From NCBI GenBank assembly GCA_017517845.1, contig JAFWXW010000032.1, forward strand, positions 1 through 54,321: 54,321 bases of DNA, in the 5' to 3' direction. The DNA is from Paludibacteraceae bacterium. GTDB lineage: Bacteria > Bacteroidota > Bacteroidia > Bacteroidales > Paludibacteraceae. Shown here in pieces: positions 9,918 through 49,715 of this stretch. Under the pieces are notes generated by a model, which was not told where the DNA came from, did not search any database, and saw only the letters and a list, made by a program, of their open reading frames with translations. Position 1 is the first letter of the stretch. Each line of letters starts with the position of its first letter. The position numbers and the translations under genes are program-made.

Positions 9918-9956
9918 AAAATTTGCACTGGGCGGAATATTCAATTTAGAATTTGG
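9918..9956 (-). pseudogene. Remnant of a RhuM-like gene 3' end
   Basis: Ungapped comparison with 12211-12249, the 3' end of the RhuM-like gene, gives 29 of 39 identical bases. Read on the reverse strand it encodes KLNIPPSANF, against KLNIPPSAIL at the end of the intact gene. It has no complete gene attached. The first AAA+ ATPase gene lies between this remnant and the intact copy. The similarity is moderate and could be a chance trace of a different family member. Confidence 0.5.
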
Positions 9957-9976
9957 AAAAGTGTAAGCAAGTAGAT

Positions 9977-10059
9977 TTTCCATATTGCAATATGGGTTTA
10001 AGAGATTATTTCCATATTGTGATATTGTTTTATAAAAATATTTCCATATTACAATATTG
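9977..10059 (+). promoter_or_regulatory. Three phased 19-bp dyads upstream of the first ATPase gene
   Basis: Three copies of a 19-bp imperfect palindrome, TTTCCATATTGCAATATGG and variants, begin at 9977, 10009 and 10041, exactly 32 bp apart (about three helical turns). The last copy begins 24 bp before the -7 box TATATTTG at 10065-10072. The same spacing is found at 18420-18504 with a different dyad sequence. It looks like an operator array on one face of the helix. Confidence 0.85.
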
Positions 10060-10064
10060 TTTTG

Positions 10065-10072
10065 TATATTTG
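10065..10072 (+). promoter_or_regulatory. -7 promoter box of the first ATPase gene
   Basis: TATATTTG, 22 bases before the ATG at 10095 and 24 bases after the start of the last dyad. Confidence 0.65.
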
Positions 10073-10094
10073 CAATATCTAAAAAATCTAGAGT

Positions 10095-11288
10095 ATGGAA
10101 TACGAAATTTTATATAGAAATTCTGGACGTTTAATAGCTATGCAAGATCTTTCATTTAAAAGGGATTTGTATGCTAAAATAAACTGGAATGCTCGTTTTA
10201 TAGGAATTAAAGGACCTAAGGGAGTAGGGAAGTCAACATTGTTATTGCAATATATTAAGGAGAATCTAGTAGGTGAGAATGTGTTGTATGTGTCGCTAGA
10301 TAATATGTGGTTTATATCTCATTCTCTGATGGATTTAGTTGAGTATCATTATATTAATGGTGGTACACATCTCTTTCTAGATGAGGTTCATAAATATCCA
10401 CATTGGCAAACATACATAAAGAATATATACGATAATTATCCAACCTTAAAGGTGGTGTTTACAGGAAGTTCAATGCTGCAGATTGACCAAAAAGAGGGCG
10501 ATTTGTCTCGTAGGGTGGTAATGTATACCATGCATGGAATGTCTTTTAGAGAATACCTTTCATTTGAAGGTGTGCTATCGTATAATCCTGTCAAATTTGA
10601 AGATTTAATAGAAAAACATGTTGCAATTGCAACCGATATAACATCTAAAATCAAGGTGATCCCATATTTCAAGGATTATTGTAAATATGGATATTATCCT
10701 TTCTATAAAGAGGATATTGATGGTTTTAATACTAGATTGGTAGAGGTTTGTCGTCAAATAATAGAAAATGACATTCCTGCAGTTGATGATGTTGCCTATG
10801 CTACAGTATTAAAATTAAAGAAATTATTGATGATAATTGCTCAACAAGTTCCTTTTATCCCAAAGATGGAGGATTTGTATGCTCAATTGGAAACAAGTAG
10901 AGAACAAGGATTGAGATTGTTAGAACTATTAGAGAGAGGTGCATTGTTAGGTCTTCTTAAATCAACAGTAAAGAAATTAAAACAAATGTCTTCTCCACAA
11001 AAAATGTTTTTGGATAATACAAATCTGGTATATGCCTTACATGATAATCCTGAGATAGGAACGATAAGAGAAACATTTTTCTTTAATCAGGTTAGCAGAA
11101 TTCTTCCTGTAAATCATACTAAAATTGGTGATTTTCTAGTTGATGAAAAGTATATTATTGAAGTAGGAGGAGCAGATAAAACATTCAAGCAGATTAAAGA
11201 TGTGCCTGATAGTTATTTAGCAATAGATAATGTGGAAGTGGGAAGAGGTAATAAAATCCCTCTTTGGTTGTTTGGATTTTTGTATTAA
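10095..11288 (+). CDS. AAA+ ATPase, AAA_14/DUF4143-type
   Basis: A 397-residue ATPase. Walker A is GPKGVGKST at about residues 40-48 and Walker B is HLFLDEVHK with Asp96-Glu97. A sensor-like VVFTGSSM follows, then SFREYL, a hallmark of this family. The C-terminal part resembles DUF4143, which has a degenerate nuclease-like fold; here IGDFLVDEKYIIEVGG replaces the usual EVDF...EVK pattern. The cellular role of this widespread family is not established. It stands alone, with the dyad array at 9977-10059 as probable control region. The gene is bracketed by a RhuM-end remnant (9918) and the intact RhuM-like gene (ends 12208). Confidence 0.8.
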   Translation: MEYEILYRNSGRLIAMQDLSFKRDLYAKINWNARFIGIKGPKGVGKSTLLLQYIKENLVGENVLYVSLDNMWFISHSLMDLVEYHYINGGTHLFLDEVHKYPHWQTYIKNIYDNYPTLKVVFTGSSMLQIDQKEGDLSRRVVMYTMHGMSFREYLSFEGVLSYNPVKFEDLIEKHVAIATDITSKIKVIPYFKDYCKYGYYPFYKEDIDGFNTRLVEVCRQIIENDIPAVDDVAYATVLKLKKLLMIIAQQVPFIPKMEDLYAQLETSREQGLRLLELLERGALLGLLKSTVKKLKQMSSPQKMFLDNTNLVYALHDNPEIGTIRETFFFNQVSRILPVNHTKIGDFLVDEKYIIEVGGADKTFKQIKDVPDSYLAIDNVEVGRGNKIPLWLFGFLY

Positions 11289-12207: not shown

Positions 12208-13125
12208 TTATAAAATTGCACTTGGTGGGATATTCAATTTTGAAAATGCAAAGAGTTTCTTTCCTAGGTCTTTAAGCGAAGCTCCGATGTGATACACTTC
12301 TGTGTCGTCGATGATTAAAAACCTATCGTGCGAAGTCGTATGATTATGTATGTTGATAGGAGAATACTGCCTATTGTGTTTTTGCAAATCCTGTCTGAGA
12401 GTGTATGAAATAGGGTAGGAGTAAATATTGGCAGAGACTCCAGGCTTGCGTTTACTCAACATAAGTAGCACCGATTCATCAATGTAGTTGTCAATAAGTA
12501 CCAAACTTTTATTTGCCGACTTAATCAAATCCGTAGCAAACTTATACGCATCAAAAATCTGCCCATTGTGAAAAACTCCTTCAACAGGTGGAAGAGCCGT
12601 ACGAACAAAAAAATCTACTTGCTTGTTGAGGTCTTCAATTTTGGCATCTTGTTCAGCAAATTTTCTATCAATCTTGTCTTCTAATAGGTTAATTCTCTGA
12701 TTTACCGCATAACCGCGCAATAGATATTCTTTCAGAACCTTGTTCGCCCAACGTCTAAATTCTGTTCCCCGTTTACTTTTTACACGGTATCCAACAGATA
12801 TTACAACGTCTAAACTATAAAGTGTAGTAGGTTTGAACTTAGAAATAGTATTATGCAAAATTTGCATATTACCCTCAGTTTCTAATTCTTCCTCTGTAAA
12901 GATGTTTTTAATATGCCTAGCGATAACAGATTGATCTTTTATAAATAATTCCGCCATCTGTGCCTGGCTAAGCCACACCGTGTCATTCTCCAAACGAACT
13001 TCGAGACTAATAGTATCGTTCGGACGATAAAGGATAATTTGATTTTGTTCTTTTGCGGAAACTTCGTTAACACTCAAAGAAATCTCTTCCCTTGCAGTTT
13101 GCTTTGCTTGTAAATCAGTTTTCAT
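12208..13125 (-). CDS. RhuM family protein
   Basis: A 305-residue RhuM-type protein. The N-terminal half carries the family signature: ISLEVRLENDTVWLSQAQMAELF, then TTLYSLDVVISVGYRVKS and GTEFRRWANKVLKEYLLRGYAVN. A coiled-coil segment (residues ~160-195) leads to a C-terminal domain with SHDRFLIIDD and HIGASLKDLG, resembling a phospholipase-D-like half motif. RhuM proteins occur on mobile and pathogenicity islands, and their function is unclear; DNA binding is plausible. The promoter is the box at 13262-13269, giving a leader of about 130 bases. Its 3' end has a partial copy at 9918-9956. Confidence 0.8.
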   Translation of the reverse strand: MKTDLQAKQTAREEISLSVNEVSAKEQNQIILYRPNDTISLEVRLENDTVWLSQAQMAELFIKDQSVIARHIKNIFTEEELETEGNMQILHNTISKFKPTTLYSLDVVISVGYRVKSKRGTEFRRWANKVLKEYLLRGYAVNQRINLLEDKIDRKFAEQDAKIEDLNKQVDFFVRTALPPVEGVFHNGQIFDAYKFATDLIKSANKSLVLIDNYIDESVLLMLSKRKPGVSANIYSYPISYTLRQDLQKHNRQYSPINIHNHTTSHDRFLIIDDTEVYHIGASLKDLGKKLFAFSKLNIPPSAIL

Positions 13126-17906: not shown

Positions 17907-17945
17907 TCACTTCCTCTTCTAAACTATCATGTTCACGTTTTTGGG
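17907..17945 (-). pseudogene. Relic of the 3' end of the NAGPA-like gene
   Basis: 33 of 39 bases match 19837-19875, the 3' end of the intact gene at 19837-20736. Read on the reverse strand it gives PKNV, then a TAG in place of the Trp codon, then KRK and the stop. Only nine bases further right begins a copy of the upstream site of the LytTR gene (17955-17988). So this looks like a copy of the whole two-gene operon reduced to its two ends by deletion. Confidence 0.7.
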
Positions 17946-17954
17946 TTAATGATA

Positions 17955-17988
17955 AATGTACAAAATATAGCTAATTCTGTACCAAATT
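17955..17988. promoter_or_regulatory. Candidate LytTR operator, copy 1
   Basis: 32 of 34 bases match 21160-21193 upstream of the LytTR gene. The core is an imperfect dyad around TAGCTA: GTACAAAAT...ATTCTGTAC. Here it lies about 95 bases upstream of the small membrane protein gene at 18082. Confidence 0.6.
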
Positions 17989-18081
17989 TATATGTTGTTG
18001 AAATTGATACAATAGTGACTAATTTACTTGTTATGCATGTAAAATACTGCTACTTTTACCAATATTTTAAAACAATCAATT

Positions 18082-18419: not shown

Positions 18420-18504
18420 TTTCCTTCTAAAAAGGAAAGAAATGTGCAAAAATTTCCTTTTGAAAAGGAAATAATTAAGTAAAAGTTTCCTTTTTAGAAG
18501 GAAA
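18420..18504 (+). promoter_or_regulatory. Three phased 19-bp dyads upstream of the second ATPase gene
   Basis: Three 19-bp palindromes (TTTCCTTCTAAAAAGGAAA, TTTCCTTTTGAAAAGGAAA, TTTCCTTTTTAGAAGGAAA) begin at 18420, 18453 and 18486, exactly 33 bp apart. The last begins 24 bp before the -7 box TATATTTG at 18510-18517. Spacing and position match the array at 9977-10059, but the sequence differs beyond the shared TTTCC. The last dyad would cover the -33 region, so binding there should repress. Confidence 0.9.
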
Positions 18505-19836: not shown

Positions 19837-20736
19837 TCACTTCCTCTTCCACACTATATAGCTCACGTTTTTGGGGCAACCGGATGGGTTATTGCGCCAG
19901 ATGTCTTCGCCGTGTTCGTGTGTGATGCCGTTTTGGTCAACAGACCATCCGTAGGCAGTAGAGCCCACAAGATAAATGGCATTGTTCACACCAAGGTCTA
20001 CAAGTGCTTGCGCAAAATCGTGGAAAGACTCGCGAGTGAGTGACTCTACCATAAATACACTGCTTTGCATTTGGCAGATGGCACGACGAATTGTTTTGCC
20101 TTTAGGGTTGTTTTCTACTAGCTTACCATTATCTACCAAAGCATATTGTCTAAAGAAATATCCTTCATTTTCTGTTGCCATTTCAAACAATGGAGTGCTT
20201 TCTGCTACGCCTACATATACTTTCCCATTGATAGAAGCGCAGTAGCCTTTTTTTGATTTTCCCCATGAAATTGGCTTTCCTTTGTGAACAAATGCACCTA
20301 CAATTTCACCATTATCTGCTCGTACGTCTGCTGCTTGTCCAACAAAAATAACAGATGGATCGTCCTTTTTCATTCTGCCTATATAGAGTGACATTTCTGC
20401 GTGATGCGGAATGAACAAACGTAGTTGTATGTCGTTGATGCATGTGTCTATGCGTTCGATATAGCCAACGTTAGTAGTGTCGCTTGGAATATTAAACAAA
20501 GGTACGCTGTCTGGCAATACTGGTGTAGGCTTTGCTTGAGGTTCAAAGGCACTTGAATAATTATTTTCGTTTGCTACGTTAGTACGTGTATTTTCAATAA
20601 TCAATAATGCCACAACTATAAATAATAGGCATACAATCGCAATTGGTATCCACTTCATTTTGTGTGAAGTGGTTGGATTTTTGTCGCCAACAATGCGAAT
20701 TTGGTCGTCTCTTATATCTTTATTTTGGTTTATCAT
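19837..20736 (-). CDS. Membrane-anchored phosphodiester glycosidase-like (NAGPA domain) protein
   Basis: A 299-residue protein with a membrane helix at ~residues 29-49 (WIPIAIVCLLFIVVALLII) and an outer domain. The domain resembles the NAGPA/DUF2233 phosphodiester glycosidase family: GYCASINGKVYVGVAEST, KTIRRAICQMQ, SFHDFAQALVDLGVNNAIYL and a GSTAYGW loop. It overlaps the LytTR regulator gene by four bases, so the two form an operon. The stop codon abuts that of the ATPase gene. A broken copy of its 3' end is at 17907-17945. Confidence 0.68.
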   Translation of the reverse strand: MINQNKDIRDDQIRIVGDKNPTTSHKMKWIPIAIVCLLFIVVALLIIENTRTNVANENNYSSAFEPQAKPTPVLPDSVPLFNIPSDTTNVGYIERIDTCINDIQLRLFIPHHAEMSLYIGRMKKDDPSVIFVGQAADVRADNGEIVGAFVHKGKPISWGKSKKGYCASINGKVYVGVAESTPLFEMATENEGYFFRQYALVDNGKLVENNPKGKTIRRAICQMQSSVFMVESLTRESFHDFAQALVDLGVNNAIYLVGSTAYGWSVDQNGITHEHGEDIWRNNPSGCPKNVSYIVWKRK

Positions 20737-21098: not shown

Positions 21099-21113
21099 GT
21101 GCAAATTGATAAA

Positions 21114-38427: not shown

Positions 38428-41400
38428 ATGGCAACAGAATATAGATTATATGTAAGAGAAATCAATTCTGATTATACTAGAATTGATGAAACTGTACTAA
38501 ATGTGAATCTGATTCAATGTATGTATAAACCTAGTTCTTTAGAAATAGAAATTCAGACAGTTAGTGATATAAATACTTTTAAAGATAAATTGATAAAATT
38601 ATCATATAGAAATAATAACGGAACTACTGAATCTGATTTATTTAAGGATTATTTTATTTTCAACATAAGGAAAAAAGGTGAAAAGATAACTTTAACTGCA
38701 TATAGTTTAGACAAATTCTTAACTATAGATAAATTCTCTCAAGCATTTACAGGAAAACTACTTGTAGATGAAATGATAAAACCTACTTTACAAACTTCTA
38801 ATAGTACTAGTTTTAAGAATTTTAGAAAGATACTAACCAAAAGTGAAACTGGAGATATTTCAAATATAATAAAAAACAAAATACAAAACTCCATTATTCC
38901 ATACGCAGTTCAATATAATGAAAGTTTCTATGACTTTATGGTACGTATGTGTAATAGAGATGGTGAGTTCTTATTTTTTGATGAAAATCAAGAATTGCAC
39001 ATAGGTCTAGATGAAACAGTTACAAATACAAATTTAGAATTAAATACAGAAACAGAGATAATAGATTCTTATTTTGAAACGGATGAAAGTAATTGGGTGG
39101 ACCCCGATTATCTAGGTAAGTTAAAAGATAAAGGAGTAGATTATAAAGAAAACTTTAATTCTACTGCAACAAAAGAAACATCTAATCTTTATTCATCTTG
39201 CTATGTGTTGGCACCAGAATATTTAGAAAATATCAAGGAGGTGGAAAGAAAAGATTATGCGGTATTAGGAGATTATATGTGTTGGTTCTCTGAAGTAGCA
39301 GCTTCTCTTCGTGCATTTGAAGAGAATGGAGCAGTGTCTGATAGTTTAGTAGCAACCGCAAAATATATAGCAGATAGGGTTTTGCATATAAAATATTTTA
39401 AAGATGGCGTTAATAAAGATTATGAAAATAAATTTAGATATATCTACAAGAAAGAAGGTGATGAAACCATAAAGGAAGAGAGAAGTTATCTATATGCAGA
39501 TGAACAAAGAAAAAAAATAAACTATCAAGAAATATACAAAGGACAACAATTCTCTCAATCCAATCAGATTATAATCAATATTTCTTATGTGCCTCCAGTA
39601 AAAGTAGGACAAGTAATAAAGTTATCTACAGGAGATGACAAATATGTTGTTTATAATATAGAGAATTATATTATAGGAACTAAATTTGGTGATGATATTA
39701 GTTATGTAGAAGATTATAAGATACTTTTAATTAAGTTTAATGGTGATACTGTCTATCCATTGCCAATTATAGAAAACCGCTTTCGTAAATCTTCTGCTCA
39801 ACGTGCTATTGTAATGGATAATTTTGATCCCTCTCGTTTGGGACGTGTTCGTGTAAAATTCCCATGGCAAAAAGAGAAAGATACAGAGCAGAAAAATGAG
39901 GATCAAATTAATGAAAGTAATAACTGGACTCCTTGGATTCGTGTTGCTACACCTATGGCTTCTGATGGGGCGGGATTTTTATTTACACCTGCTGTGAATG
40001 ATGAAGTATTAGTGGATTATGAAGACGGAAATATAGAAAGACCATACGTTTGTGGTGCTTTTTATAATGAATCCAATAGACCTTCTATCGCATCTCAAAG
40101 CCAAATGCATGGCAAAGTAAAATCTATTACATCTGCCAATGGTCACCATATTTCATTTACAGATAATGCAGGATTGGAGCGTTATGTTTCTAACTTTATG
40201 CCAATAGCTAAATATGTGTCATCTTTTGGTTTATGTGATGAGCAGTCATTTAAATTTGATGAAGCAAAATATTTTGGAGGTGGGTTTGAAATTTCCGATT
40301 ATTTTGGAATCTATTCTATAACTGGTTCAACACACAATAGAAGTATAAATGTAAGTTCTCCTTTTGGTTCAGTAAGTATAGATGCATTCCAAGGTATAAC
40401 TATTAATGCTCCATTAGGAGATGTGAAAATAGTTGGAAAGAATGTAAGTATAGAAGCAAGAAATAATTTGAAATTAGAATCTGGTACTAATATTAAGAAT
40501 TGTTTTGGTAAATATAAAAATAGTGGATTCCAAAAAACAATTAATGAATTTGCTTCTAGTTTGTTTGCAGATAATTTGTTAGGAACTATTACAGGAATGA
40601 TTGATTTAAGTTTCTTTAGAAACTATGTAGAAGTACTTTTGCGACCTATTGGTGGTACAATGCTTATAAAATCAAATCGTTATTTAAGATTAGAGGCAGG
40701 AGAAGGGAAAGCTGTTCCAGTAAAAAATCTAAATAATAAGGGAATAGGTATTTTAAGATCATTTGTAAATGTAGAACACAAAACTCCTCTACAATATGCA
40801 AAAGAAGATGCGTTAAGAGCATATTCAGATTTGTGTTCCTATAGAGACAATTTGAATTCAATATTGAGTAAATATAGAACAATATGCGGTAGAGAGAATC
40901 ATCAAGATGTTAAATTCTTTAATGGAAGTACTCTTAAAGCATATAGTGATATCATACATGAAATCACTGAGCAAGATGAAGTATTTAAGAATTCTATAAA
41001 ACTTATAAGTGAAGAATTAGAAGAATGTAGTAAAAAGATTCAAATTTTGAAGATTTTTGATGACAAGGATTACAAAGATGAAGTAGATCGTTTATGGAAT
41101 AGACTAAAAGGTAATTTTAATGGAGAAGTGTCCAACTTGCAAATTGAATTAAATAAAAGGGAATTAGTGTATAACCATTTAAAAAGAATTGTTGGGAAAA
41201 ATGAAGAAATGGAAAAAAGTCTATCATTCGTACAAATACAAACCTATGATGATGAAAGTGTTGCAAATTCTATTACTGTAAAAAACAGAGGTATGGAAGA
41301 AAGTGAAGAAGCTTGGTACAAGGTTTGGGGTGATAAGGCTTTAGACTCAGTAAAGAAACAGCTTGATGTAGGTGGATTTATGGATTTATCTGATGATAAA

Positions 41401-41559
41401 GTTTGGGGAACAAACGACAAAGGTGCAATTCTTTTCTCTGATGATAAAAAATCATTCTTCAGAATCCAACCTGATGGTACTTTTGCAAAAGGATTGATAC
41501 GCAATTATAAAGAAGAGTTCCTACAATTAATGAAAAACGTTAATAATGATCAACAATGA
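38428..41559 (+). CDS. T6SS spike protein VgrG (TssI) 2
   Basis: A 1043-residue paralogue of VgrG1 with the same parts: MYKPSSLEIEIQT, IPYAVQYNESFYDFMVRMCNRDGEF, RAIVMDNFDPSRLGRVRVKFP, PYVCGAFYNES and the beta-helix NRSINVSSPFGSVSIDAFQG. A helical extension of ~270 residues differs in sequence from VgrG1, but both end in GAILFSDDKKSFFRIQPDG...KG.IRNY. Two different VgrGs suggest mixed spikes or alternative cargo. It overlaps the next gene by four bases (ATGA), so their products probably work together. Confidence 0.92.
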   Translation: MATEYRLYVREINSDYTRIDETVLNVNLIQCMYKPSSLEIEIQTVSDINTFKDKLIKLSYRNNNGTTESDLFKDYFIFNIRKKGEKITLTAYSLDKFLTIDKFSQAFTGKLLVDEMIKPTLQTSNSTSFKNFRKILTKSETGDISNIIKNKIQNSIIPYAVQYNESFYDFMVRMCNRDGEFLFFDENQELHIGLDETVTNTNLELNTETEIIDSYFETDESNWVDPDYLGKLKDKGVDYKENFNSTATKETSNLYSSCYVLAPEYLENIKEVERKDYAVLGDYMCWFSEVAASLRAFEENGAVSDSLVATAKYIADRVLHIKYFKDGVNKDYENKFRYIYKKEGDETIKEERSYLYADEQRKKINYQEIYKGQQFSQSNQIIINISYVPPVKVGQVIKLSTGDDKYVVYNIENYIIGTKFGDDISYVEDYKILLIKFNGDTVYPLPIIENRFRKSSAQRAIVMDNFDPSRLGRVRVKFPWQKEKDTEQKNEDQINESNNWTPWIRVATPMASDGAGFLFTPAVNDEVLVDYEDGNIERPYVCGAFYNESNRPSIASQSQMHGKVKSITSANGHHISFTDNAGLERYVSNFMPIAKYVSSFGLCDEQSFKFDEAKYFGGGFEISDYFGIYSITGSTHNRSINVSSPFGSVSIDAFQGITINAPLGDVKIVGKNVSIEARNNLKLESGTNIKNCFGKYKNSGFQKTINEFASSLFADNLLGTITGMIDLSFFRNYVEVLLRPIGGTMLIKSNRYLRLEAGEGKAVPVKNLNNKGIGILRSFVNVEHKTPLQYAKEDALRAYSDLCSYRDNLNSILSKYRTICGRENHQDVKFFNGSTLKAYSDIIHEITEQDEVFKNSIKLISEELEECSKKIQILKIFDDKDYKDEVDRLWNRLKGNFNGEVSNLQIELNKRELVYNHLKRIVGKNEEMEKSLSFVQIQTYDDESVANSITVKNRGMEESEEAWYKVWGDKALDSVKKQLDVGGFMDLSDDKVWGTNDKGAILFSDDKKSFFRIQPDGTFAKGLIRNYKEEFLQLMKNVNNDQQ

Positions 41560-43361
41560 ACACAATAGCAGAAAACTTTGAAAAGTGGCAATCTGAACTA
41601 GAGGAACTTCAGAAAAATGTCAAAAAGGATTTAGAAGAGATTAAGCGTTGCAAGACAGAAGTTCAGTCCATGAAAAACAACTTGACAGACACTCTAGGTG
41701 AACTAAAAGAACTCACCAGAGGCAAGTTTATTCGTGATGAAAATCGCATAATCCTTTCTGCACCAGAGATTATTATAGGCAATGTAGATAAAGACGGAGT
41801 ACTTTACAATATGCCTTCACACATAGTTGTGCGAGGTAATGATGTAAATATAGAAGCCACAGGTTTAGGCGGGTTATTAGGAGGAAGCGTAACAACCCGT
41901 GCTTCGCAAATTCGCAACATAGCAGAAGACCCAGGCAAAGACGGCAACGAACATGCCGTATTGCCATTCTCAGAAGTGGTGTCACAAGGACGTAGTGTCG
42001 CACTCATTAGTGAAGATGCCAAAGGAGTTTTCACTCGCCCTGCATGTGGTGGAATAACAGGAGTGGAACTTAGTTCAGAAACAGGCATTGCTATGAATGC
42101 CACATTGTCTAATACAAACAAGAAGTCTATTCTTAAAAACAGGGGTAAACAATTGGATTCTCAAATAAAAGATCTAGAGTCTCGTTCCAAATCTCTCAAG
42201 CAAGAGGTAGAATCTAATATGCAGAACTTAAAAAAGATAGTTGAAACAGAAGACCTATTGGGAAGTGTTACTGCAGCACGTACCAATTACCTAGACATTA
42301 GTGAACTTTATGAATCCTTTGAAACATGTTCTGCTTCATTATATAGTTCTATGGCAGGATATTTCAGTGTGCTATCCAAACTTGCAGAAGCCAATAGGCA
42401 AAAAAATTGCATAGAAGAGATGGAAAAAACTGTGGATAATAAAAAATCATCATTCAAAGATAAAACCACAGGTACATTCATTAGCATGCGTTCAGAAAAC
42501 ATCACAGCCCTATCTGTAGATGGTGATGGTAATTATCGTGAAAACAAAGAAGCAGGTGTAAGTATCACAGCAAAACATGTGAATATTGGAACTGTCAAAG
42601 CAGATGAATCACTTCAAGATGATAGTACCATTACCATGGCTTCACGTAAGGTAGAAATAAGTACTCTTAATCCCAAAGTGGAACGCAATGACAAAGGTGA
42701 AATCACCAAAGCAGATTACCCTGCAGTAGGTGATGTTATCATTAAGTCCAAAAACATAGATCTAGAAACTCTAGACTATGAGTGGAAAGATAAGAAACAA
42801 CAAGAAAAGGCTCTTACCAAAGATGGAAAAATAGCATTGCGAGCAGAAAAAGTGGATGTGTCTGTAACAGATACAGAAGGTAAGGCAACAGGAAAAGTGT
42901 CTGTAAATGCCAAAGTGCTAGAAGTGAAATCTATGGATGTAGATAAAGATAAACGCACAGAAAAATCACTAGCCAAAGGTAGTACTATGCTTCTGCTTTC
43001 TGAAAAAATGTATATGGGTGCACGTGATTCCAAACTTAAGAGTGCTCAATTACAAGTTTCTTCAGATAAGACAGGACTATTTGCAGACTCTACTCTAGAA
43101 CTCCAACAAGCCAAAGCAGTAGTCCAACTCTCTGGAGGCAACACAGCAGTGGGAGGTGGAAATCTAGACCTTTATGGTAAAACCACCCTTCAAGGTGATG
43201 TTACAGCAAAAGGTTCTATCACAGGTGGCGATATAGAAATGAAAAACATGAAAGTGAAATCTTCATTTAAGTCTCCAAGCACATCAGAAGGTATTGCAGT
43301 GCCAGGAGCACCTGCCACTGGCAAACTTAGTGCAAAACTTAAGGAAGAAGAACTAAAATAA
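41556..43361 (+). CDS. VgrG-coupled beta-rich spike-like protein
   Basis: A 601-residue protein of no family I can name. An N-terminal coiled coil (residues ~5-55, ELEELQKNVKKDLEEIK) is followed by IILSAPEIIIGNVDKDG and many short beta repeats of the kind xVxIxAxxVxIxT seen in VgrG beta-helices (HVNIGTV, GKVSVNAKVLEVKS, LDLYGKTTLQGDVTAKGSI). A second coiled coil lies near residues 185-230. The C-terminus is Pro/Ala-rich (GIAVPGAPATGK). It overlaps vgrG2 by four bases. It may extend the spike or be a carrier for effectors. Confidence 0.6.
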   Translation: MNTIAENFEKWQSELEELQKNVKKDLEEIKRCKTEVQSMKNNLTDTLGELKELTRGKFIRDENRIILSAPEIIIGNVDKDGVLYNMPSHIVVRGNDVNIEATGLGGLLGGSVTTRASQIRNIAEDPGKDGNEHAVLPFSEVVSQGRSVALISEDAKGVFTRPACGGITGVELSSETGIAMNATLSNTNKKSILKNRGKQLDSQIKDLESRSKSLKQEVESNMQNLKKIVETEDLLGSVTAARTNYLDISELYESFETCSASLYSSMAGYFSVLSKLAEANRQKNCIEEMEKTVDNKKSSFKDKTTGTFISMRSENITALSVDGDGNYRENKEAGVSITAKHVNIGTVKADESLQDDSTITMASRKVEISTLNPKVERNDKGEITKADYPAVGDVIIKSKNIDLETLDYEWKDKKQQEKALTKDGKIALRAEKVDVSVTDTEGKATGKVSVNAKVLEVKSMDVDKDKRTEKSLAKGSTMLLLSEKMYMGARDSKLKSAQLQVSSDKTGLFADSTLELQQAKAVVQLSGGNTAVGGGNLDLYGKTTLQGDVTAKGSITGGDIEMKNMKVKSSFKSPSTSEGIAVPGAPATGKLSAKLKEEELK

Positions 43362-43391: not shown

Positions 43392-43417
43392 TTATAGTCT
43401 TTAAAATCTAAAAAAAA

Positions 43418-43478
43418 GCTCTGAATCCTGCGGAATCTATCAAATTTTACCACATTCCGCAGAGTTCAGAGTATTTTT
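43418..43478. repeat. 61-bp direct repeat with dyad, left copy
   Basis: 51 of 61 bases match 44936-44996, in the same orientation. Inside, CTGCGGAAT and ATTCCGCAG form a dyad extended by CTCTGAA and TTCAGAG. T-tracts on both sides suggest it can also work as a bidirectional terminator. The right copy is upstream of the ATPase gene at 43484-44896, so the pair brackets that gene. Confidence 0.85.
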
Positions 43479-43483
43479 ATGAG

Positions 43484-44896
43484 TTAGTAGAATAAAGAAT
43501 CTGCCAAAATTATTTTTTGAAATTCATTTGAATACTCATTTTTTTGTACTTCGTTTGCAGAAATTAAAACTAAATGTACAGCTTTGGAAGTTTGCAACTC
43601 CTGAATAAATCTAGCCTTTTTGTTCTGTATTACTTCATTATAGTCAGAATCTATTGTATATTTTTCTTTTGTATATTTTATTTCACAAATATCTATCACA
43701 TTATCATCACGTTCTATAACCAAATCTATCTGTGCTCCTTTGCCATTTTTGGAATCTGTACTTCTCCAGGAACATACATTGCTAATTACACCTGTTATTC
43801 CTAAATTTGACTTAATCTGAGGAACATGTGCTAGACATACTCTTTCAAATGCAAGCCCGCACCAATTGTAATAAAGTGGAGTTCCCTGATTATGTGACCA
43901 AAAGTTTTCGTCGTTGCGTTCATTATTCTGCATAAATTTATAGTAGAAAAGAGTAAATGGGTCAATTAATTGGTATATTGCGTTTTTCTTCTTAAATCCA
44001 ATATGATTATATTTTCTAATGAAGCCACAATATTCCAAATCTTCTAGGATTGTAGAAAGTTTGCCATTGTCAGAAATCTTTATCGACTCAATTAGTTCTT
44101 CTCTAGACATTCCTACTTTTTTTATTCCTAGTGCATGAATTACTTTGATATACGATTCAGGATTTCTAAATAATGAAGCATATAAATCATCATATTCATT
44201 ATGAAGTTCACCCTCTGGGTTAAAGAAGATACTATCTATATTTTGAGCAAGACTTTTGCTTCTATCCAAAAATGTCCAATAAAATGGGACACCGCCCATT
44301 ATCATATAGTTTTCTAGTATTTGCCTTCTACTCATTCCCAACTTGTTGGCAGTGGCATATAACTCACATTCTTGTAATGTAAAAGGTTTTATATTTATCT
44401 TAGTTGTTACACGTCCACGTAAACCACCATGATTTTTAACTAGTTTGTTAATTACCCATGAAGTAGCAGAACCACAAACAACCAATAACACATCCTTTCT
44501 GCCAGAAGCCCAACCATTCCAGAAATGTTCTAATGCAGGAATAAAACCAGAATGGAAAGTATCCATCCAAGGCATTTCATCTATAAAAATAACTTTCTTA
44601 TTTTCTGTAGAATTTTTAATTACATCTTTTAGTTGATCAAATGCATCTATCCAGGTTTTAGCCAAAGGCACATTCGCACCAGCCTCCTTCAAAGAAGATT
44701 GCCATGCTTTTAGTTGCTTTTTCATAGAAGATTTAGCCAATCCAGCATGCTCAAACGTAAACTTGTAATCAAAGGTTTCTCGCACAAAAAATGTTTTGCC
44801 CACTCTTCTGCGACCATATACTGTTACAAACTGCGAATACTCAGATTCGTATGCTTTCATCAGTTTTTCCTTCTCTAAAATTCTACCTACAATCAT
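43484..44896 (-). CDS. AAA+ ATPase with PD-(D/E)XK-like C-terminus (ATPase_2/DUF234 type)
   Basis: A 470-residue ATPase. Walker A is GRRRVGKTF (residues ~28-36), Walker B VIFIDEMPW with Asp106-Glu107, then VVCGSATSWV. A winged-helix segment (GMSREELIESIKI) precedes the C-terminal nuclease-like core AQIDLVIERDDNVIDICEIKY, which keeps the Asp and Glu-x-Lys of PD-(D/E)XK enzymes. It is related to the ATPase at 45723-47168. The gene is bracketed by a 61-bp direct repeat. The promoter has a TATATTTG box at 44919-44926. Function is unknown. Confidence 0.82.
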   Translation of the reverse strand: MIVGRILEKEKLMKAYESEYSQFVTVYGRRRVGKTFFVRETFDYKFTFEHAGLAKSSMKKQLKAWQSSLKEAGANVPLAKTWIDAFDQLKDVIKNSTENKKVIFIDEMPWMDTFHSGFIPALEHFWNGWASGRKDVLLVVCGSATSWVINKLVKNHGGLRGRVTTKINIKPFTLQECELYATANKLGMSRRQILENYMIMGGVPFYWTFLDRSKSLAQNIDSIFFNPEGELHNEYDDLYASLFRNPESYIKVIHALGIKKVGMSREELIESIKISDNGKLSTILEDLEYCGFIRKYNHIGFKKKNAIYQLIDPFTLFYYKFMQNNERNDENFWSHNQGTPLYYNWCGLAFERVCLAHVPQIKSNLGITGVISNVCSWRSTDSKNGKGAQIDLVIERDDNVIDICEIKYTKEKYTIDSDYNEVIQNKKARFIQELQTSKAVHLVLISANEVQKNEYSNEFQKIILADSLFY

Positions 44897-44918: not shown

Positions 44919-44980
44919 CAAATATAATAAAAAATGCTCGCAATCCTGCGGAATGTGGCAAAAATTTACACATTCCGCAG
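44919..44980 (-). promoter_or_regulatory. Promoter and dyad of the ATPase gene at 43484
   Basis: The -7 box TATATTTG is at 44919-44926 on the reverse strand. Just upstream, a perfect 12-bp dyad CTGCGGAATGTG...CACATTCCGCAG (44946-44980) with an 11-base spacer lies within the right direct repeat, where it would cover the -33 region. Confidence 0.6.
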
Positions 44981-44996
44981 AGTTCAGAGTGTTTTT
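44936..44996. repeat. 61-bp direct repeat with dyad, right copy
   Basis: Matches 43418-43478 at 51/61 bases. The dyad arms are longer and more perfect here than in the left copy (12 against 9 bp). Confidence 0.85.
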
Positions 44997-45006
44997 GTGC
45001 TATTTT

Positions 45007-45120
45007 GTTTAATCAACTAAACAAAATAGGGTGGTTTTTATTTAATGGATTAAACAAAAAAAGGTGCTCAATAGGAAAACGCACCTTTTTTACCCTCAAA
45101 TTCATAGGAAAACGCACCTT
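45007..45120. repeat. Two repeat pairs with 33-bp period, no matching gene
   Basis: Pair 1: GTTTAATCAACTAAACAAAA at 45007 and the related palindrome ATTTAATGGATTAAACAAAA at 45040. Pair 2: ATAGGAAAACGCACCTT at 45071 and again at 45104. Both pairs are exactly 33 bp apart. They resemble the phased arrays upstream of ATPase genes, but they have no gene of their own nearby and may be left-over control regions. No gene lies in 44997-45263. Confidence 0.75.
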
Positions 45121-45687: not shown

Positions 45688-45718
45688 AATCATCAAGATT
45701 TAACAATTTTGCTTAAGC
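45688..45718 (-). repeat. 31-bp exact copy of the 3' end of the ATPase gene at 47370
   Basis: All 31 bases are identical to 47358-47388. On the reverse strand it encodes LKQNC and the stop, the end of the protein at 47370-48359, but without the rest of the gene. The ATPase gene at 45723-47168 lies between the two copies. Confidence 0.9.
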
Positions 45719-45722: not shown

Positions 45723-47168
45723 TTAATCTCCAAACAAGTCATCCATTGTGATTTCTTTTTGAACTAGTCCACTATATTTACCATATTTGATACCATATGT
45801 GCTAATTATGGTTAGGTGTATGGCTTGTTTTGCAGAGAGTGTATCTTTGAGGGTTTCAATGCGATGTCTAAGTTTTGAGTCTTCTTCTTTGTCAATATTG
45901 TAGATGTCGCTTGCAAATTTCATTTCACAAAGATTTACAATATTATCTTTTCTAATAATTAGAAGGTCTATTTGTGCTCCTTCTCGGTTGTCATTGCCTT
46001 TTATGCTCCAAGCTGATATAGAGCAGTTGACACCTTTTATTCCAAGAGCATTTTTGATGTTATCAATATGTTGCCAACAAACTTCTTCGAATGCAATACC
46101 TCTCCAATACTTTAAAATGTCTGAAGTAATATTTTCAGTCATATAGTTTGTTTTGTTACTGTTTGCTTCTACATGCTTAAGCCAAAACAAACAAAAGTTG
46201 TCGATAAGTTTATATTTTACTACCTTCCCGTGCTCATTGTATGGAGTGTATTTTTGTATGAAATCGCTTTCTATAAGTGATGTTAATGTATTTGTAAGTC
46301 CTCCTCCAAAAGGAATTCCAGTTTCTGCTGAGATTTCTTCTCTAGTATAACCTATATGTTTTGTAGAAAGTAGTTTGATTATTTTTTTGCAATCTTCTGG
46401 GTTGCTGAATATTGCTTTAAATAGTCTATTGTATTCGTCTTTAAGTCGAGGATTCCTTCCAAAAAGTATTTCATCAATATTTCCAGATAGGCTAAAACCC
46501 TTTTTGAAATATCTTAGATAATATGGAATTCCCCCAAATACCATATATGCTTGAATAATGTCGTAGCGTGACATTATAATATTTTCGTGTTCAAAATATT
46601 CTTCACATTCTTTTAAAGTAAAAGGTGATAATTTAATCTCGTCTGTAAGTCTGCCATATAGTCCACCTTTATTACGAGATAAGTTTCCTAATATCCATGA
46701 AGTCGCACTTCCGCATACAATAAGCATAATATTATCCCTGCTGCTACACCAACCATTCCAAAAACTTTCAAATGCAGGTAAAAATCCAGAGCGTGGGGTA
46801 TCCATCCAAGGAAGTTCATCTAAAAAGATTACTTGTTTAGAGCCATCGTCAAATCTTATCAGTAGTTGTTTTAGTTGAAAAAAAGCTTCCATCCAAGTTT
46901 TGGGTTTGTCGTAGCCTTCTAAACCATGACTCAAAAGTGTATAGTAGAAACTTTCTAATTGTGTTCTCATAAGATTCTTCTCACTTTCTTGATCTACAGG
47001 TGAAACTCCTGTGTGTTGAAAGGTGAAACGATTCTTAAAAACCTGATTGATTAGAAAGGTTTTTCCAACGCGTCTTCTGCCATATACTGCGACAAATTCT
47101 GAACGGTCACTATGATAGAGTTTTTCTAGTTCTTCTATCTCTTTTTTTCTACCTATTATTACACTCAT
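45723..47168 (-). CDS. AAA+ ATPase with PD-(D/E)XK-like C-terminus (ATPase_2/DUF234 type)
   Basis: A 481-residue relative of the ATPase at 43484. Walker A is GRRRVGKTF (residues 30-38) and Walker B VIFLDELPW with Asp117-Glu118, then IVCGSATSWI. A winged-helix segment (GYTREEISAETGI) precedes AQIDLLIIRKDNIVNLCEMKF, the nuclease-like core. The C-terminal ~80 residues end in TMDDLFGD. The -7 box is TATATTTG at 47188-47195. It is bracketed by copies of the 3' end of the ATPase gene at 47370 and lies next to a copy of the 3' end of the gene at 49667. Confidence 0.82.
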   Translation of the reverse strand: MSVIIGRKKEIEELEKLYHSDRSEFVAVYGRRRVGKTFLINQVFKNRFTFQHTGVSPVDQESEKNLMRTQLESFYYTLLSHGLEGYDKPKTWMEAFFQLKQLLIRFDDGSKQVIFLDELPWMDTPRSGFLPAFESFWNGWCSSRDNIMLIVCGSATSWILGNLSRNKGGLYGRLTDEIKLSPFTLKECEEYFEHENIIMSRYDIIQAYMVFGGIPYYLRYFKKGFSLSGNIDEILFGRNPRLKDEYNRLFKAIFSNPEDCKKIIKLLSTKHIGYTREEISAETGIPFGGGLTNTLTSLIESDFIQKYTPYNEHGKVVKYKLIDNFCLFWLKHVEANSNKTNYMTENITSDILKYWRGIAFEEVCWQHIDNIKNALGIKGVNCSISAWSIKGNDNREGAQIDLLIIRKDNIVNLCEMKFASDIYNIDKEEDSKLRHRIETLKDTLSAKQAIHLTIISTYGIKYGKYSGLVQKEITMDDLFGD

Positions 47169-47187: not shown

Positions 47188-47294
47188 CAAATATATAAAT
47201 AATTTTTCTATTTGGCAAAATATATACCTATTTATTCTGCCAGATAGAGTGTAAAATGGTTGTATGTGGCAAGATAAGCCTTTGTTTATTCTGC
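47188..47294 (-). promoter_or_regulatory. Promoter and repeat array of the ATPase gene at 45723
   Basis: The -7 box is at 47188-47195 on the reverse strand. TATNTGGCARNATA-type elements occur at 47209, 47233 (inverted) and 47263. A 32-base unit ending in TTTATTCTGC recurs at 47209-47240 and 47263-47294, 54 bp apart. The second unit runs into the copy of the 3' end of the gene at 49667. The spacing differs from the 32/33-bp arrays. Confidence 0.55.
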
Positions 47295-47334
47295 ACTCAT
47301 ATTCATGCTGAATACTGAGTCTATGCATTCTGCG
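47286..47334 (-). repeat. 49-bp copy of the 3' end of the gene at 49667
   Basis: 48 of 49 bases match 49667-49715, and the match begins exactly at that gene's stop codon. No further part of the gene is present here. Two ATPase genes (47370, 48371) lie between this copy and the intact gene. Confidence 0.92.
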
Positions 47335-47357: not shown

Positions 47358-47388
47358 AATCATCAAGATTTAACAATTTTGCTTAAGC
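47358..47388 (-). repeat. 31-bp repeat within the end of the ATPase gene at 47370
   Basis: Identical to 45688-45718. It covers the last codons, the stop codon (47370-47372) and 12 bases beyond. Confidence 0.9.
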
Positions 47389-48359
47389 CATAATTTAAAG
47401 AGTGGGTCTGTTATATAATAAGCGCCTCCTCTTTCGGTTTTGGTCTCTTTGCCTAAAACTTTTTGATTAATCATTAGTTTTAGATAAGGAGATATTTTTC
47501 CATTTTCCAATCCAGTTTTTTCTCTTATTTCAGATAATATGATATTATTGTCTGAATGTGAAATGCTAGTTAGGATTTTTTGTGTAGGAGTAGAAAGGGA
47601 ATCGTATTTACTTTGAAAATATAGGTTGTATAAATCTAATAATACTTGGATGTCATTTGCAGAATCTTGATTTCTGCTTATTATTTCCAAAGTTATTATC
47701 AGAGATTTGATTGTTTTGGGTAAGTAAAACATCAATTTTTCGACTCGTGAGATGTCATATTTATTCCCTACTATATTTTTTATTATCTCAGAAGTGAGAG
47801 GTTTTAGATACGAAATCTTAAATCCATCAAAAAATGCAGCGTTATATTCTGTAAAAGCAGGAAGCACATTGTTGGATGTAGCAACAATAATTGGTGCTCC
47901 TGCTTTATAAATCTTTCCTCGAAAATCGTAATGTTCTACATTATTGGTTCTTTCAAAATAATATTGAATGTTATCAATAAGTAGTATAATACGTTTGCTA
48001 TTCTCTTTTTGCCAATTAATAATCTCATCAAATGTATTGTTTTTGCCACTTATATTTAGGTGTACCGCACATTTATTCCATATGTTTTTTGTAGAATAGA
48101 GTGACTTACCCTCTATTATTATTGGAATAAATTTATTGCTAAAATTTTTATTGATATGTCTAATTATTTTGTGCAATAGAAATGTCTTGCCACTGCCATC
48201 TTCACCAATAATAAGATTAGGTTGAGCAATTTTAGTTAAATTTTCAGTAGCCAGATAGTTAGTTAACGAATTATATATTTCGTTATTAATATCTGGAAAG
48301 CCTCTCAATAATTCATTATGAGGTACAATAGATTTATTAAATGACGTTTTTTTCTGCAT
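47370..48359 (-). CDS. AAA+ ATPase with winged-helix C-terminus
   Basis: A 329-residue ATPase from a different branch than its neighbours. Walker A is GEDGSGKTF (residues 52-60). The Walker B segment IILLIDNIQ has Asn130 where a catalytic Glu is usual, so hydrolysis may be slow or switch-like. The C-terminus has a winged-helix segment (LSEIREKTGLENGKISPYLK) and YYITDPLFKLWL, typical of ATPase_2-family ends, but no nuclease domain. It starts 12 bp after the stop of the gene at 48371, so the two form an operon. Its 3' end has a copy at 45688. Confidence 0.75.
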   Translation of the reverse strand: MQKKTSFNKSIVPHNELLRGFPDINNEIYNSLTNYLATENLTKIAQPNLIIGEDGSGKTFLLHKIIRHINKNFSNKFIPIIIEGKSLYSTKNIWNKCAVHLNISGKNNTFDEIINWQKENSKRIILLIDNIQYYFERTNNVEHYDFRGKIYKAGAPIIVATSNNVLPAFTEYNAAFFDGFKISYLKPLTSEIIKNIVGNKYDISRVEKLMFYLPKTIKSLIITLEIISRNQDSANDIQVLLDLYNLYFQSKYDSLSTPTQKILTSISHSDNNIILSEIREKTGLENGKISPYLKLMINQKVLGKETKTERGGAYYITDPLFKLWLKQNC

Positions 48360-48370
48360 CTATAGATGAT

Positions 48371-49534
48371 TTATTCCACAAATTTATTAAACCAATAATC
48401 TCTAAGTAGAGGTGAACGAAATACTCTTAATGAATCTTTTTTTAGAATGTATCCATCATTTTCTAGCATCTCAAGTACTTTACTTAGTGTAAAGTCAAAT
48501 TCTTCTATTTTTGAAGAATCTTGATCTGTCATTAAATAATTTAAGATAGTAGATCGTTTTAATCCAGCTTCTTGAGTAGAAAGAAGTTTTAGTATTTTTC
48601 GTGCAATTGATTCGTATGTCCTATATTCTGTTAATCGCTCAGACCATGTGTTTAGGTAGTTTTCAGAACAAAGTTTATTGTATGCATTATCTATATTCTC
48701 TTTAGTTATTTCACCTTCATATTCTTCTACTAGTTTAGAAAAAATAATTTGAATAAAATACGGAATGTTCCAATGAAGTTTTTCTAATGTATATTGCACT
48801 ATGTTGTTCTCTATTTTTATTTCTTCAGATTTACATAAACTAGTGAGTAAACCTGCAGCTTCTTCTTCTGTTAACTCGTCTAAGCCAAATTCTGTAAGGT
48901 CATTAATTGTATATCCTAGATTCATAGCAGAGGTGAAGTTTCTTAAACCTACTGAACCACAGAATAACCATCTTACTTTAGTCTTGCTTACCTGTCTTAA
49001 ACTTCTTAACCAATTAAGAATAAATGCAACTTTCTCTGCACCATTTTCACTTTTGTTTAATATGCTTAAAAAGAGAGTTAATTCATCTACTGCAATAAAA
49101 GTATCTTCATCGTGCTTAATAAGTTCTTTAAGATTCTTGTATAAATCTTCTTGCTCTTCTTTTCTTTCTAGACTAAAATCAATAGGTCCAACAGAAACTT
49201 TTTCTATACGTTCAAAAATAGAGGTAAGACCTTTAGATGCTCCTTCTGCTAGTTGTTTCCAAATGTCATTTTTCTTAAATGACTCTATTATTAGACGCAA
49301 AAAACCTTCTTCTGTTGTAGTTTCTTCTAGGTCTATATATACACATTTCCAGCCTTCATTCTTTTTTACCTCAATAAGTCTTTTAGCTAATGATGATTTC
49401 CCTATACGACGAGGTGCTGATAATAATAAAGAGTGATTATTATCAAGAAGTTTGATGGCTTTACGAATTTCTTTTTCTCTACCGTAGAAGTCTTCTCCTT
49501 CTACTGGTGGACCGATTTTATTTGATATACACAT
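48371..49534 (-). CDS. AAA+ ATPase (ATPase_2-like)
   Basis: A 387-residue ATPase. Walker A is APRRIGKSS (residues 40-48), Walker B TFIAVDELTLF with Asp150-Glu151, and a sensor-like LFCGSVG. A C-terminal winged-helix (STILNYLMTDQDSSK) precedes DGYILKKDSLRVFRSPLLRDYW. An upstream in-frame ATG at 49585 is rejected because the -7 box TATCTTTG (49566-49573) lies inside that extension; the ATG at 49534 (MCISNKIGPP) fits. It is the first gene of a two-ATPase operon with the gene at 47370. Function is unknown. Confidence 0.75.
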   Translation of the reverse strand: MCISNKIGPPVEGEDFYGREKEIRKAIKLLDNNHSLLLSAPRRIGKSSLAKRLIEVKKNEGWKCVYIDLEETTTEEGFLRLIIESFKKNDIWKQLAEGASKGLTSIFERIEKVSVGPIDFSLERKEEQEDLYKNLKELIKHDEDTFIAVDELTLFLSILNKSENGAEKVAFILNWLRSLRQVSKTKVRWLFCGSVGLRNFTSAMNLGYTINDLTEFGLDELTEEEAAGLLTSLCKSEEIKIENNIVQYTLEKLHWNIPYFIQIIFSKLVEEYEGEITKENIDNAYNKLCSENYLNTWSERLTEYRTYESIARKILKLLSTQEAGLKRSTILNYLMTDQDSSKIEEFDFTLSKVLEMLENDGYILKKDSLRVFRSPLLRDYWFNKFVE

Positions 49535-49565
49535 AGTTATAAAAAATTGAGATGTTATTATATCG

Positions 49566-49676
49566 CAAAGATACAATTTTTTCATTTAATAGAAAAATTT
49601 TTCTATAGAAAAGTTTTTTAATAAAATTCCCATCTTATTTTGACGAAAATGACTATCTAAACTGTCTTATTCTGCA
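49566..49676 (-). promoter_or_regulatory. Promoter, palindrome and 32-bp repeats of the ATPase gene at 48371
   Basis: The -7 box TATCTTTG is at 49566-49573 on the reverse strand. A perfect 16-bp palindrome TAGAAAAATTTTTCTA lies at 49590-49605. Two related 12-mers, TCTTATTTTGAC (49633) and TCTTATTCTGCA (49665), are 32 bp apart. The second contains the stop codon of the gene at 49667, so that gene's end is part of the array. The array matches 45186-45262 in reverse. Confidence 0.7.
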
Positions 49677-49715
49677 CTCATATTCATGCTGAATACTGAG
49701 TCTATGCCTTCTGCG
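49667..49715 (-). repeat. 49-bp repeat at the 3' end of the gene at 49667
   Basis: 48 of 49 bases match 47286-47334, with 41 consecutive identical bases from the stop codon on. Confidence 0.92.

Follow-up and report, generated by a model that had tools for sequence, protein, structure and literature searches.

Why are several ATPase genes in one stretch of bacterial DNA bracketed by partial copies of the genes beside them? The stretch analyzed here (the window) is 54,321 nucleotides long and comprises positions 1-54,321 of contig JAFWXW010000032.1, from assembly GCA_017517845.1 of a Paludibacteraceae bacterium. An initial annotation placed five direct repeats, termed a to e, around six AAA+ ATPase genes, and suggested that ATPase cassettes are gained at gene 3' ends with a duplicated flank. 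Most of these repeats look like footprints of single-gene ATPase cassettes that move between bacterial genomes. The cassette reading matters because the same genes rank among the commonest untested "phage-defense" genes in microbes.

The ATPases, named here by their first coordinate, belong to several families. ATPase 10095 (10095-11288, forward strand) and ATPase 18535 (18535-19836, forward strand) match PADLOC profile PDC-S01 (1.2e-24 and 2.5e-101, respectively). Above the Pfam cut-off, AAA_14 is found alone in 10095, and together with DUF4143 in 18535 and in the L302 ATPase described below. Two ATPase_2 family genes on the reverse strand, 43484 (43484-44896) and 45723 (45723-47168), are 41% identical and match profile PDC-S27 (1.1e-194 and 2.3e-192). 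The remaining two, also on the reverse strand, have only weak PADLOC matches: 47370 (47370-48359) is AAA_22-like, under the Pfam cut-off, and 48371 (48371-49585) is an AAA_22 ATPase.

According to the accessible text of PMC12988326, PDC-S01 and PDC-S27 are ATPase domains fused to members of the PD-(D/E)XK group, and were named as defense candidates through a guilt-by-embedding approach. In the same text, PDC-S01 is ranked as the fourth most common defense across prokaryotes, with a reported 29,494 bacterial genes, and most such candidates are said to await experimental validation (PMC12988326). A structure model was made of ATPase 18535. The predicted fold resembles the archaeal Walker-type ATPases SSO1545 (2fna) and PABY2304 (2qen), with an AAA+ and a winged-helix part; this match covers residues 17-323, within an alignment good over residues 4-327, and applies to that part only. 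The C-terminal domain occupies about residues 325-433. In a family alignment of 44 sequences, E334 and D361 are invariant, with the consensus ExDF...ExK. The nuclease motif of 18535 itself looks degenerate, with QVC replacing ExK.

Upon realignment, all five repeats were found where the initial annotation had placed them. Repeats a (positions 17907 and 19837, 33/39), c (45688 and 47358, 31/31), and d (47286 and 49667, 48/49) are unchanged, and repeat e (9918 and 12211; 30/39, originally 29/39) is weak, as first noted. Repeat b is also present, although its extent was revised from 51/61 to 57/68, at 43411 and 44929. For a, c, d, and e, gene coordinates and Pfam matches agree with the earlier statement that one copy is the 3' end of an intact neighbor.

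Repeat a is longer than first reported, because a second repeat (17951-18067 versus 21156-21273) adjoins its 39 bp. Its source is the sequence preceding the partner gene in the same two-gene operon. The intact operon (19837-21116, reverse strand) consists of a NAGPA-like gene (19837-20736), whose stop codon abuts that of the convergent ATPase 18535, and a LytTR gene (20733-21116). By alignment, positions 17907-18067 (reverse strand) appear to be a relic of 19837-21273, in which the 3' end of the NAGPA-like gene is fused to the upstream region of the LytTR gene and the interior is missing. In repeat d, a second copy (47286-47334, reverse strand) corresponds to the 3' end (49667-49715) of an intact gene with a ribosome-recycling-factor-like domain (PF01765; 49667-50362, reverse strand). 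In repeat c, the 3' end of ATPase 47370 together with 12 additional bp (47358-47388, reverse strand) is present again at 45688-45718 (reverse strand). The short copy of e (9918-9956, reverse strand) reads SKLNIPPSANF, and is a possible, weak remnant of the 3' end (12211-12249) of a RhuM-family gene (12208-13125, reverse strand). It still encodes SKLNIPPSA, nine residues of the RhuM C-terminus. Judged from these alignments, a, c, and d appear to be remnants of duplicated neighbor genes, and e probably is one as well. Together, c and d can be interpreted as a stack of two units, [d-ATPase-ATPase-c][d'-ATPase-c'].

Repeat b has a different character. Its palindromic copies lie just past the stop codon of ATPase 43484 (43411-43481) and 33 bp upstream of its start (44929-44999). 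Going by its sequence, b is a palindrome pair hugging its gene rather than a flank duplication, and we infer that the pair represents putative recognition or regulatory palindromes bracketing the gene. No dispersed copies of this palindrome are among the matches listed for the window genome.

To place these repeats against the background of the window, 400-bp flanks were scored for 43 of the 44 listed ORFs. Repeat b reaches 35 and c reaches 31; none of the other 41 ORFs, which include the four remaining ATPases, exceeds 12. By the same rule, d scores 46 when the two-gene interval is taken, and a scores 21 at a distance of about 590-630 bp from ATPase 18535. At 12, repeat e would be inconspicuous by itself; the SKLNIPPSA residues shared with the RhuM C-terminus are what speaks in its favor.

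The initial annotation proposed a comparison with control genes, and in two separate samples flanking repeats are indeed commoner around ATPases. In the genus (80 regions examined, for 227 matches), they were observed at 9 of 83 related ATPases versus 4 of 457 control ORFs; b and c are two of the nine. The 83 are diluted by RarA-type genes that were retained (L154, confirmed; L082 3589, L155, L161, and L172, by similarity), and 74 of them score below 18 in this 500-bp test and thus have no flanking repeat. Across the class (40 regions, from at least about 150 matches, after a preliminary look at 30 short loci of which 26 were usable), the counts are 12 of 43 ATPases versus 5 of 193 controls. 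The positives are partly dependent, since L092, L093, and L094 represent one cassette in three species and L327 supplies three of the twelve class positives, and some control positives in both samples themselves adjoin ATPases (L104 and L327). Both flank tests left out ORFs whose flank was shorter than 200 bp, L105 was excluded elsewhere for a short flank, and simple repeats were disregarded in the flank tests and the site scan. One class locus, L335, holds no ATPase by profile.

Local direct duplications also enclose ATPases more often than expected, in 26 of 51 pairs versus 8.5 expected in the genus sample, and in 19 of 33 versus 7.1 in the class sample. In 2000 random placements, counts this high never occurred, in either sample. 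Overlapping pairs were merged in this count, which hides b behind a paralogous ATPase pair; 47370 and 48371, which are in neither group of the genus flank test, count as ATPases here. The idea that gain at gene 3' ends is the rule was not supported, as convergent neighbors are found at 30 of 118 ATPases versus 123 of 571 controls (p 0.39).

Sites empty of ATPase, which the annotation had led one to expect, do exist. In one genome, an ATPase lies between a decayed sufC and an intact sufC. The sufB-sufC site is empty, with a single sufC, in four relatives (G010, G014, G002, and G008). The two sufC copies are 91.4% identical to each other, and 93.8% and 94.8% identical to a relative. Their diagnostic sites are mosaic, and a single crossover inside sufC was rejected on this ground. 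Similar doubles extend over 1.2 kb at 91% (L175) and 0.9 kb at 75% (L149). However, at L149 and L087 the doubled genes are FISUMP genes, members of an expanded paralogous family, so these two doubles may have another origin. A duplicated flank, as in the initial annotation, is present, but where its length allows a judgment (sufC and L175) it is a diverged second copy of the neighbor gene and not a short target duplication.

The second empty site is that of the L103 cassette, which is missing in G014 and G015. The far-side match starts 3 and 66 bp past the upstream stop codon; this insertion is clean, and a duplication is undetectable there. Genus searches found none of the window's own sites a to e empty in a relative, and the neighbors in the window are hardly conserved within the genus. 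In a contig scan for these sites, two distant relatives came up (37% and 22%). Among the listed ORF starts and ends of the nearer one, an uncultured Alistipes, none resembled an ATPase.

Near-identical ATPase units of 1.2-1.5 kb were observed in differing contexts, with sharp ends. Those at L101 and L103 are 94% identical within unrelated flanks, those at L092 and L093 are 97.7% identical versus near 87% for their flanks, and those at L085 and L087 are 98.2% identical and inverted relative to their flanks. A palindrome-bounded unit, L302, has copies in seven genomes, where it occupies five kinds of site; the unit is conserved at 72-94%. Six of the seven copies have both palindromes, and no target-site duplication is obvious by eye. 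In different contexts the units end at the same features, namely a palindrome or iteron and the stop codon. The ATPase is the only ORF in the 1.2-1.5 kb units, which contain no transposase. Among the ATPases sampled, pairs within a genome are at most 60.6% identical, yet 20 pairs between genomes reach 90%. Unrelated ATPases occupy the same site in different species (G011 versus G013, and G140 versus G201). Taken with the empty sites and the excess of flanking repeats over controls in both samples, this observation bears out the earlier suggestion that cassettes are gained, and shows that different ATPases can lie at one site. In L114 and G011, one further gene arrived with the ATPase, so what moves can be more than one gene. 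ARAGORN finds no tRNA gene in nine loci scanned, nor are there any in five others. A tRNA gene as the target at L327, where the repeat resembled a tRNA 3' end, was dismissed on the same result.

Many of the ATPases have iterons of their own at the promoter, with a period of 32-33 or 22-23 bp, and a few have identical palindromes at both ends. In the window, three iterons (TTTCCATATTNNRATATKG, 32-bp spacing; 9977-10059, forward strand) lie just upstream of ATPase 10095, and three 19-bp palindromic iterons at 18420, 18453, and 18486 (33-bp period; 18420-18504, forward strand) lie upstream of ATPase 18535. Two more (AAGGTGCGTTTTCCTAT, 33-bp period; 45071-45120, reverse strand) lie upstream of ATPase 43484. 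Outside the window, L138 is likewise of the iteron type. Because the two iterons of 43484 sit outside the palindromes, b does not fit the unit limits seen elsewhere. The same scan detects no clear iterons at 45723, 47370, or 48371. The best lag is 32 or 33 bp for 26 of the 54 ATPases that score at least 15 (of 81), versus 9 of 63 such controls (of 466). Palindrome brackets were observed at 6 of 126 ATPases versus 0 of 657 controls, by a detector that did not flag b. Each ATPase type is paired with its own DNA sites.

We consider it fairly probable that the ATPases are single-gene mobile cassettes, that the repeats are decayed double copies of neighbors, and that b is a palindrome bracket. A cassette would consist of a promoter, carrying iterons or a palindrome as sites specific to the gene, and an ORF, and would end near the stop codon. 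In the encoded ATPase, the AAA+ domain would usually be joined to a domain of the PD-(D/E)XK type. Cassettes would be transferred between genomes, and the same intergenic sites would receive different cassettes, singly or stacked. A cassette could bring along a homologous copy of the neighbor from another lineage, to give gene X - ATPase - gene X', and one copy of X would then erode by deletion until only a short repeat is left. Recombination through flank homology is the presumed route of transfer, and the ATPase presumably binds its putative sites.

The same genes could instead be passive passengers, useful and perhaps antiviral, which ordinary recombination, both homologous and illegitimate, reshuffles within variable regions; the ATPase would have no role in its own transfer. 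This is a real possibility, though short of an even chance. It accords with the matches to the PADLOC candidates PDC-S01 and PDC-S27 and with merodiploid-like doubles having diverged copies, but sharp unit ends at recurring elements are unexpected from random recombination. A stronger form of the cassette reading holds that movement is self-driven: the ATPase would bind the iterons or end palindromes, the nuclease would cut, and repair would copy the cassette into a new chromosome in a homing-like manner. That unit ends coincide with iterons or palindromes, that sites are specific to each ATPase type, and that the units have no other ORF are all consistent with self-driven movement, as is the scarcity of close pairs within genomes despite those between genomes. 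The conserved ExDF...ExK motif and the PD-(D/E)XK superfamily assignment given in the accessible text of PMC12988326 also speak for it. However, the motif of 18535 looks degenerate, and promoter iterons may serve self-regulation only. We hold self-driven movement to be rather unlikely. The broader proposition that PDC-S01 and PDC-S27 ATPase-nuclease genes form a large unrecognized class of self-mobilizing single-gene elements, which lack a transposase and use their own sites and their ATPase and nuclease domains, is similarly doubtful.

Direct repeats and empty sites would also be produced by conventional insertion sequences or transposons, with the repeats as target-site duplications. Yet the repeats range from 23 bp to 1.2 kb, their copies have diverged, and the one-ORF units lack a transposase, which argues against target-site duplication; the ATPases sampled form no multi-copy families within a genome. 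Movement by such elements is thus very improbable. Chance similarity or assembly error deserves mention since the window genome is 81% complete and fragmented, and many genus genomes are likewise fragmented. This explanation has scarcely any likelihood, given the enrichment over controls in two samples, the inclusion of genomes rated 99-100% complete in the class sample, and the fact that a misjoin would not give diverged, decayed copies.

The cassette mobility, iterons, palindromic ends, and flank duplication of PDC-S01 and PDC-S27 genes seen here are not mentioned in the accessible text of PMC12988326. The open-access literature searched contains no title or abstract opening that presents these ATPases as mobile cassettes or with iterons. 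The BrickBuilt MITE of Porphyromonas gingivalis is a Bacteroidales mobile element that likewise carries tandem repeats, of 23 nt, but these differ in sequence from the ATPase iterons. BrickBuilt was discarded as a source of the 23-bp iterons, as the word ATPase is absent from the main text, as available, of PMC4596501, the source for these statements.

Cassette mobility offers a second reading of why these ATPases occur near defense genes, and if they are self-mobilizing, their standing as defense candidates would partly reflect mobility. Discrete cassettes with private DNA sites provide a testable handle on function, that is, whether the protein binds and cuts or only regulates itself. Diverged neighbor copies, iterons, and palindromes can serve as simple marks of recent arrivals.

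The units resemble several known systems in part. RAYT genes are single genes bracketed by REP palindromes, and RAYT is a Y1 HUH enzyme. The likeness is the single gene between palindromes; the window proteins are instead AAA+ by Pfam and predicted fold. In iteron plasmid replicons, and with Cdc6/Orc1 initiators, an ORC-like AAA+ protein is found beside iterons of fixed period. The modeled fold suggests an ORC-like AAA+ protein next to fixed-period iterons here as well, but the ATPase iterons are located at the promoter, where they may act as operators, and no free replicon was seen. Homing endonuclease genes are single-gene units with a nuclease-type domain and presence/absence polymorphism. 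The ATPase units share these traits, with a putative nuclease-type domain, and, in our sample, have one copy per type. Unlike homing endonuclease genes, they also reside at unrelated sites, which are intergenic in the cases examined.

The direct repeats that flank AAA+ ATPase genes are most likely traces of ATPase cassettes being acquired and exchanged, a cassette being an ATPase ORF with its promoter sites. The initial annotation described five such repeats around six window ATPases, and all five were recovered when the window repeats were recomputed: a at 17907/19837, b at 43411/44929, c at 45688/47358, d at 47286/49667 and e at 9918/12211, with slightly different counts for b (57/68, the aligned span now being longer) and e (30/39). 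The enclosed genes encode AAA_14 ATPases (10095, 18535), ATPase_2 proteins (43484, 45723) and AAA_22-like proteins (47370, 48371). With 400-bp flanks, flanking-repeat scores are 35 for b and 31 for c, and at most 12 for the other 41 of the 43 window ORFs tested. The same scoring gives 46 for d, 21 for a and only 12 for e; d, with two genes between its copies, and a, with one copy ~590-630 bp away, lie outside the simple flank frame. The genome is a draft (1.68 Mb, 38 contigs, 81% complete).

Because the left copy of a (17907-17945), the 3' end of a NAGPA-like gene, directly adjoins a segment (17951-18067) similar to the sequence preceding the partner gene, LytTR (21156-21273), it has the appearance of a two-gene operon that has lost its interior. 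ATPase 18535 has this relic on one side and the intact operon on the other. On the minus strand, the copies of c and d alternate in the order d, c, d', c', an arrangement that can be read as a stack of two units, the first containing ATPases 48371 and 47370 and the second ATPase 45723. Repeat e, in which nine residues of the RhuM C-terminus are retained, is statistically weak. Repeat b is unlike the others, being a palindrome on both sides of ATPase 43484.

AAA_14 matches are found in 16 genomes of the window genus at 7 to 24 each (227 in total). In a genus sample made up of the window and 80 fetched regions, a score of at least 18 is reached by 9/83 ATPases versus 4/457 control ORFs (Fisher p 1.4e-5), and a score of at least 16 by 9 ATPases versus 8 controls. 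Two of the nine positives are b and c, and another two represent a single cassette found in two species. A smaller earlier cut gave 5/40 AAA_14 genes versus 3/221 controls at a score of at least 18. In a second test, which does not take the ATPases as its starting point, direct duplications whose copies lie 0.6-6 kb apart were listed; 26 of the 51, including a, c and d, enclose an ATPase, versus 8.5 expected (sd 2.4, largest 16; random intervals, 2000 trials).

A sample of 40 regions across the class Bacteroidia, taken from the matches listed, gave 12/43 ATPases versus 5/193 controls at a score of at least 16 and 10 versus 5 at a score of at least 18, and 19 of 33 duplications enclose an ATPase versus 7.1 expected (sd 1.8, largest 13); one region, L327 of genome G187, alone gives three of the twelve positives and five of the nineteen pairs. 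The expectation that ATPases have flanking repeats more often than control genes was borne out in both samples. In L327 (569-7300), three ATPases and a RhuM-Fic gene are set apart from one another by five same-orientation copies of one repeat, an organization that resembles an array of gene cassettes. The ATPase-RhuM pairing is common to L327 and window item e.

Empty sites, which the initial annotation had proposed to look for in relatives, were found for other ATPase loci of the genus, though for none of the window repeats a-e. Genome G013 has an ATPase between sufB and sufC (suf products named by NCBIfam, SufD included) and carries sufC twice, one copy intact and one internally deleted. In G010, G014, G002 and G008, sufB adjoins a single sufC and there is no ATPase. 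In G011, which has one sufC, this junction holds, in the orientation of the suf genes, a FISUMP-like gene and a different ATPase that can be aligned to the G013 ATPase over only 155 residues (24%). The G013 sufC copies are 91.4% identical to each other and 93.8% and 94.8% identical to that of G010; as copies from a recent local duplication should be nearly 100% identical, one of the two was probably acquired from another lineage. There is no sign of a single crossover between the two copies, whose diagnostic sites form a mosaic.

The L103 cassette is absent from G014 and G015, where the far-side match starts 3 and 66 bp past the upstream-gene stop; its insertion in G013 is clean and starts 7 bp past that stop. 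At L114, a 2.7-kb stretch (an ATPase and one further gene) is absent from G012 and G013, which have 46 bp between the matching sides. In G008 (L088), an ATPase located ahead of porX is flanked on either side by a copy of the C-terminal end of MenG; no empty site is available, because the neighbours of menG differ among the other genomes seen. The neighbour gene would often be doubled on cassette acquisition, with one copy then lost. A general gain at gene 3' ends, also proposed initially, was not supported. AT-rich stretches of ~30 bp at L153 (the G013 suf locus) ~4285 and L103 ~8883 and 11738 are present in tens of copies in genus genomes. At L149, L085, L087 and L148, several ATPases have paralogous FISUMP-domain lipoproteins as neighbours (confirmed for L149), and some duplications at these loci may be due to them.

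Comparison of fetched loci revealed near-identical ATPase segments whose surroundings differ or have diverged: L101/L103 (94% over 1412 bp, flanks unrelated), L085/L087 (98.2% over 1425 bp, in opposite orientation with respect to the flanks), L092/L093 (97.7% versus flanks near 87%), L082/L143 (94.4%), L138/L152 (91.9%) and L099/L105 (94.9%). The upstream limit of the units is ~30 to 140 bp from the start codon and in several cases coincides with the first iteron (a short direct repeat of fixed period); the downstream limit ranges from ~27 bp ahead of the stop codon to ~28 bp past it. The L302 unit, bounded by 43-bp palindromes, occurs in six other genomes with 72-94% similarity over its length; the 1.4-kb flanks show no relationship apart from those of G201/G220 and stretches of <100 bp (G216/G218, G201/G218, G107/G232). 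Its right-hand palindrome was not found in G220, and the site that holds the unit in G201 is occupied in G140 by another ATPase (27% identical). Palindromes bracket 1/83 and 5/43 ATPases in the two samples versus 0/463 and 0/194 controls; two of these six ATPases are of the L302 type.

Among the ATPases fetched, a subset per genome, no same-genome pair aligning over 80% of its length exceeds 60.6% identity, and 20 between-genome pairs reach 90%, including four of RarA-type genes, which are a different kind of gene. This distribution speaks against transposition within a genome. The best hint that the ATPase-nuclease might drive its own movement is that unit ends coincide with its private sites.

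A direct repeat scoring at least 16 lies in the 250 bp upstream of 38/81 ATPases versus 26/466 controls. Among those scoring 15 or more, 26/54 ATPases versus 9/63 controls have their best period at 32 or 33 bp, and 6/54 ATPases at 23 bp; in the class sample, 5/43 ATPases have a 22 or 23 bp period at a score of at least 18. Window iterons lie at 9977/10009/10041, 18420/18453/18486 and 45071/45104; no further copies turned up in the window when two mismatches were allowed. The iterons at 45071/45104, which belong to ATPase 43484 and are spaced by 33 bp, are outside palindrome pair b. Because the sets at 9977 and 18420 closely precede a TAnnTTTG-like promoter box, self-regulation of the ATPase gene would be a natural reading.

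Relatives of 18535 are present on 236 records of a plasmid collection, 175 of them from Acinetobacter. Window positions 35279-43361 and 50388-50777 encode two large proteins, related to each other, that carry type VI secretion/phage-baseplate domains, and a DUF4280 protein, which suggests that a type VI secretion-like island adjoins the ATPases. The gene at 49667-50362, adjoining the DUF4280 gene, encodes a ribosome-recycling-factor-like domain (PF01765, 4.7e-14) and has a 37% relative in an uncultured Alistipes.
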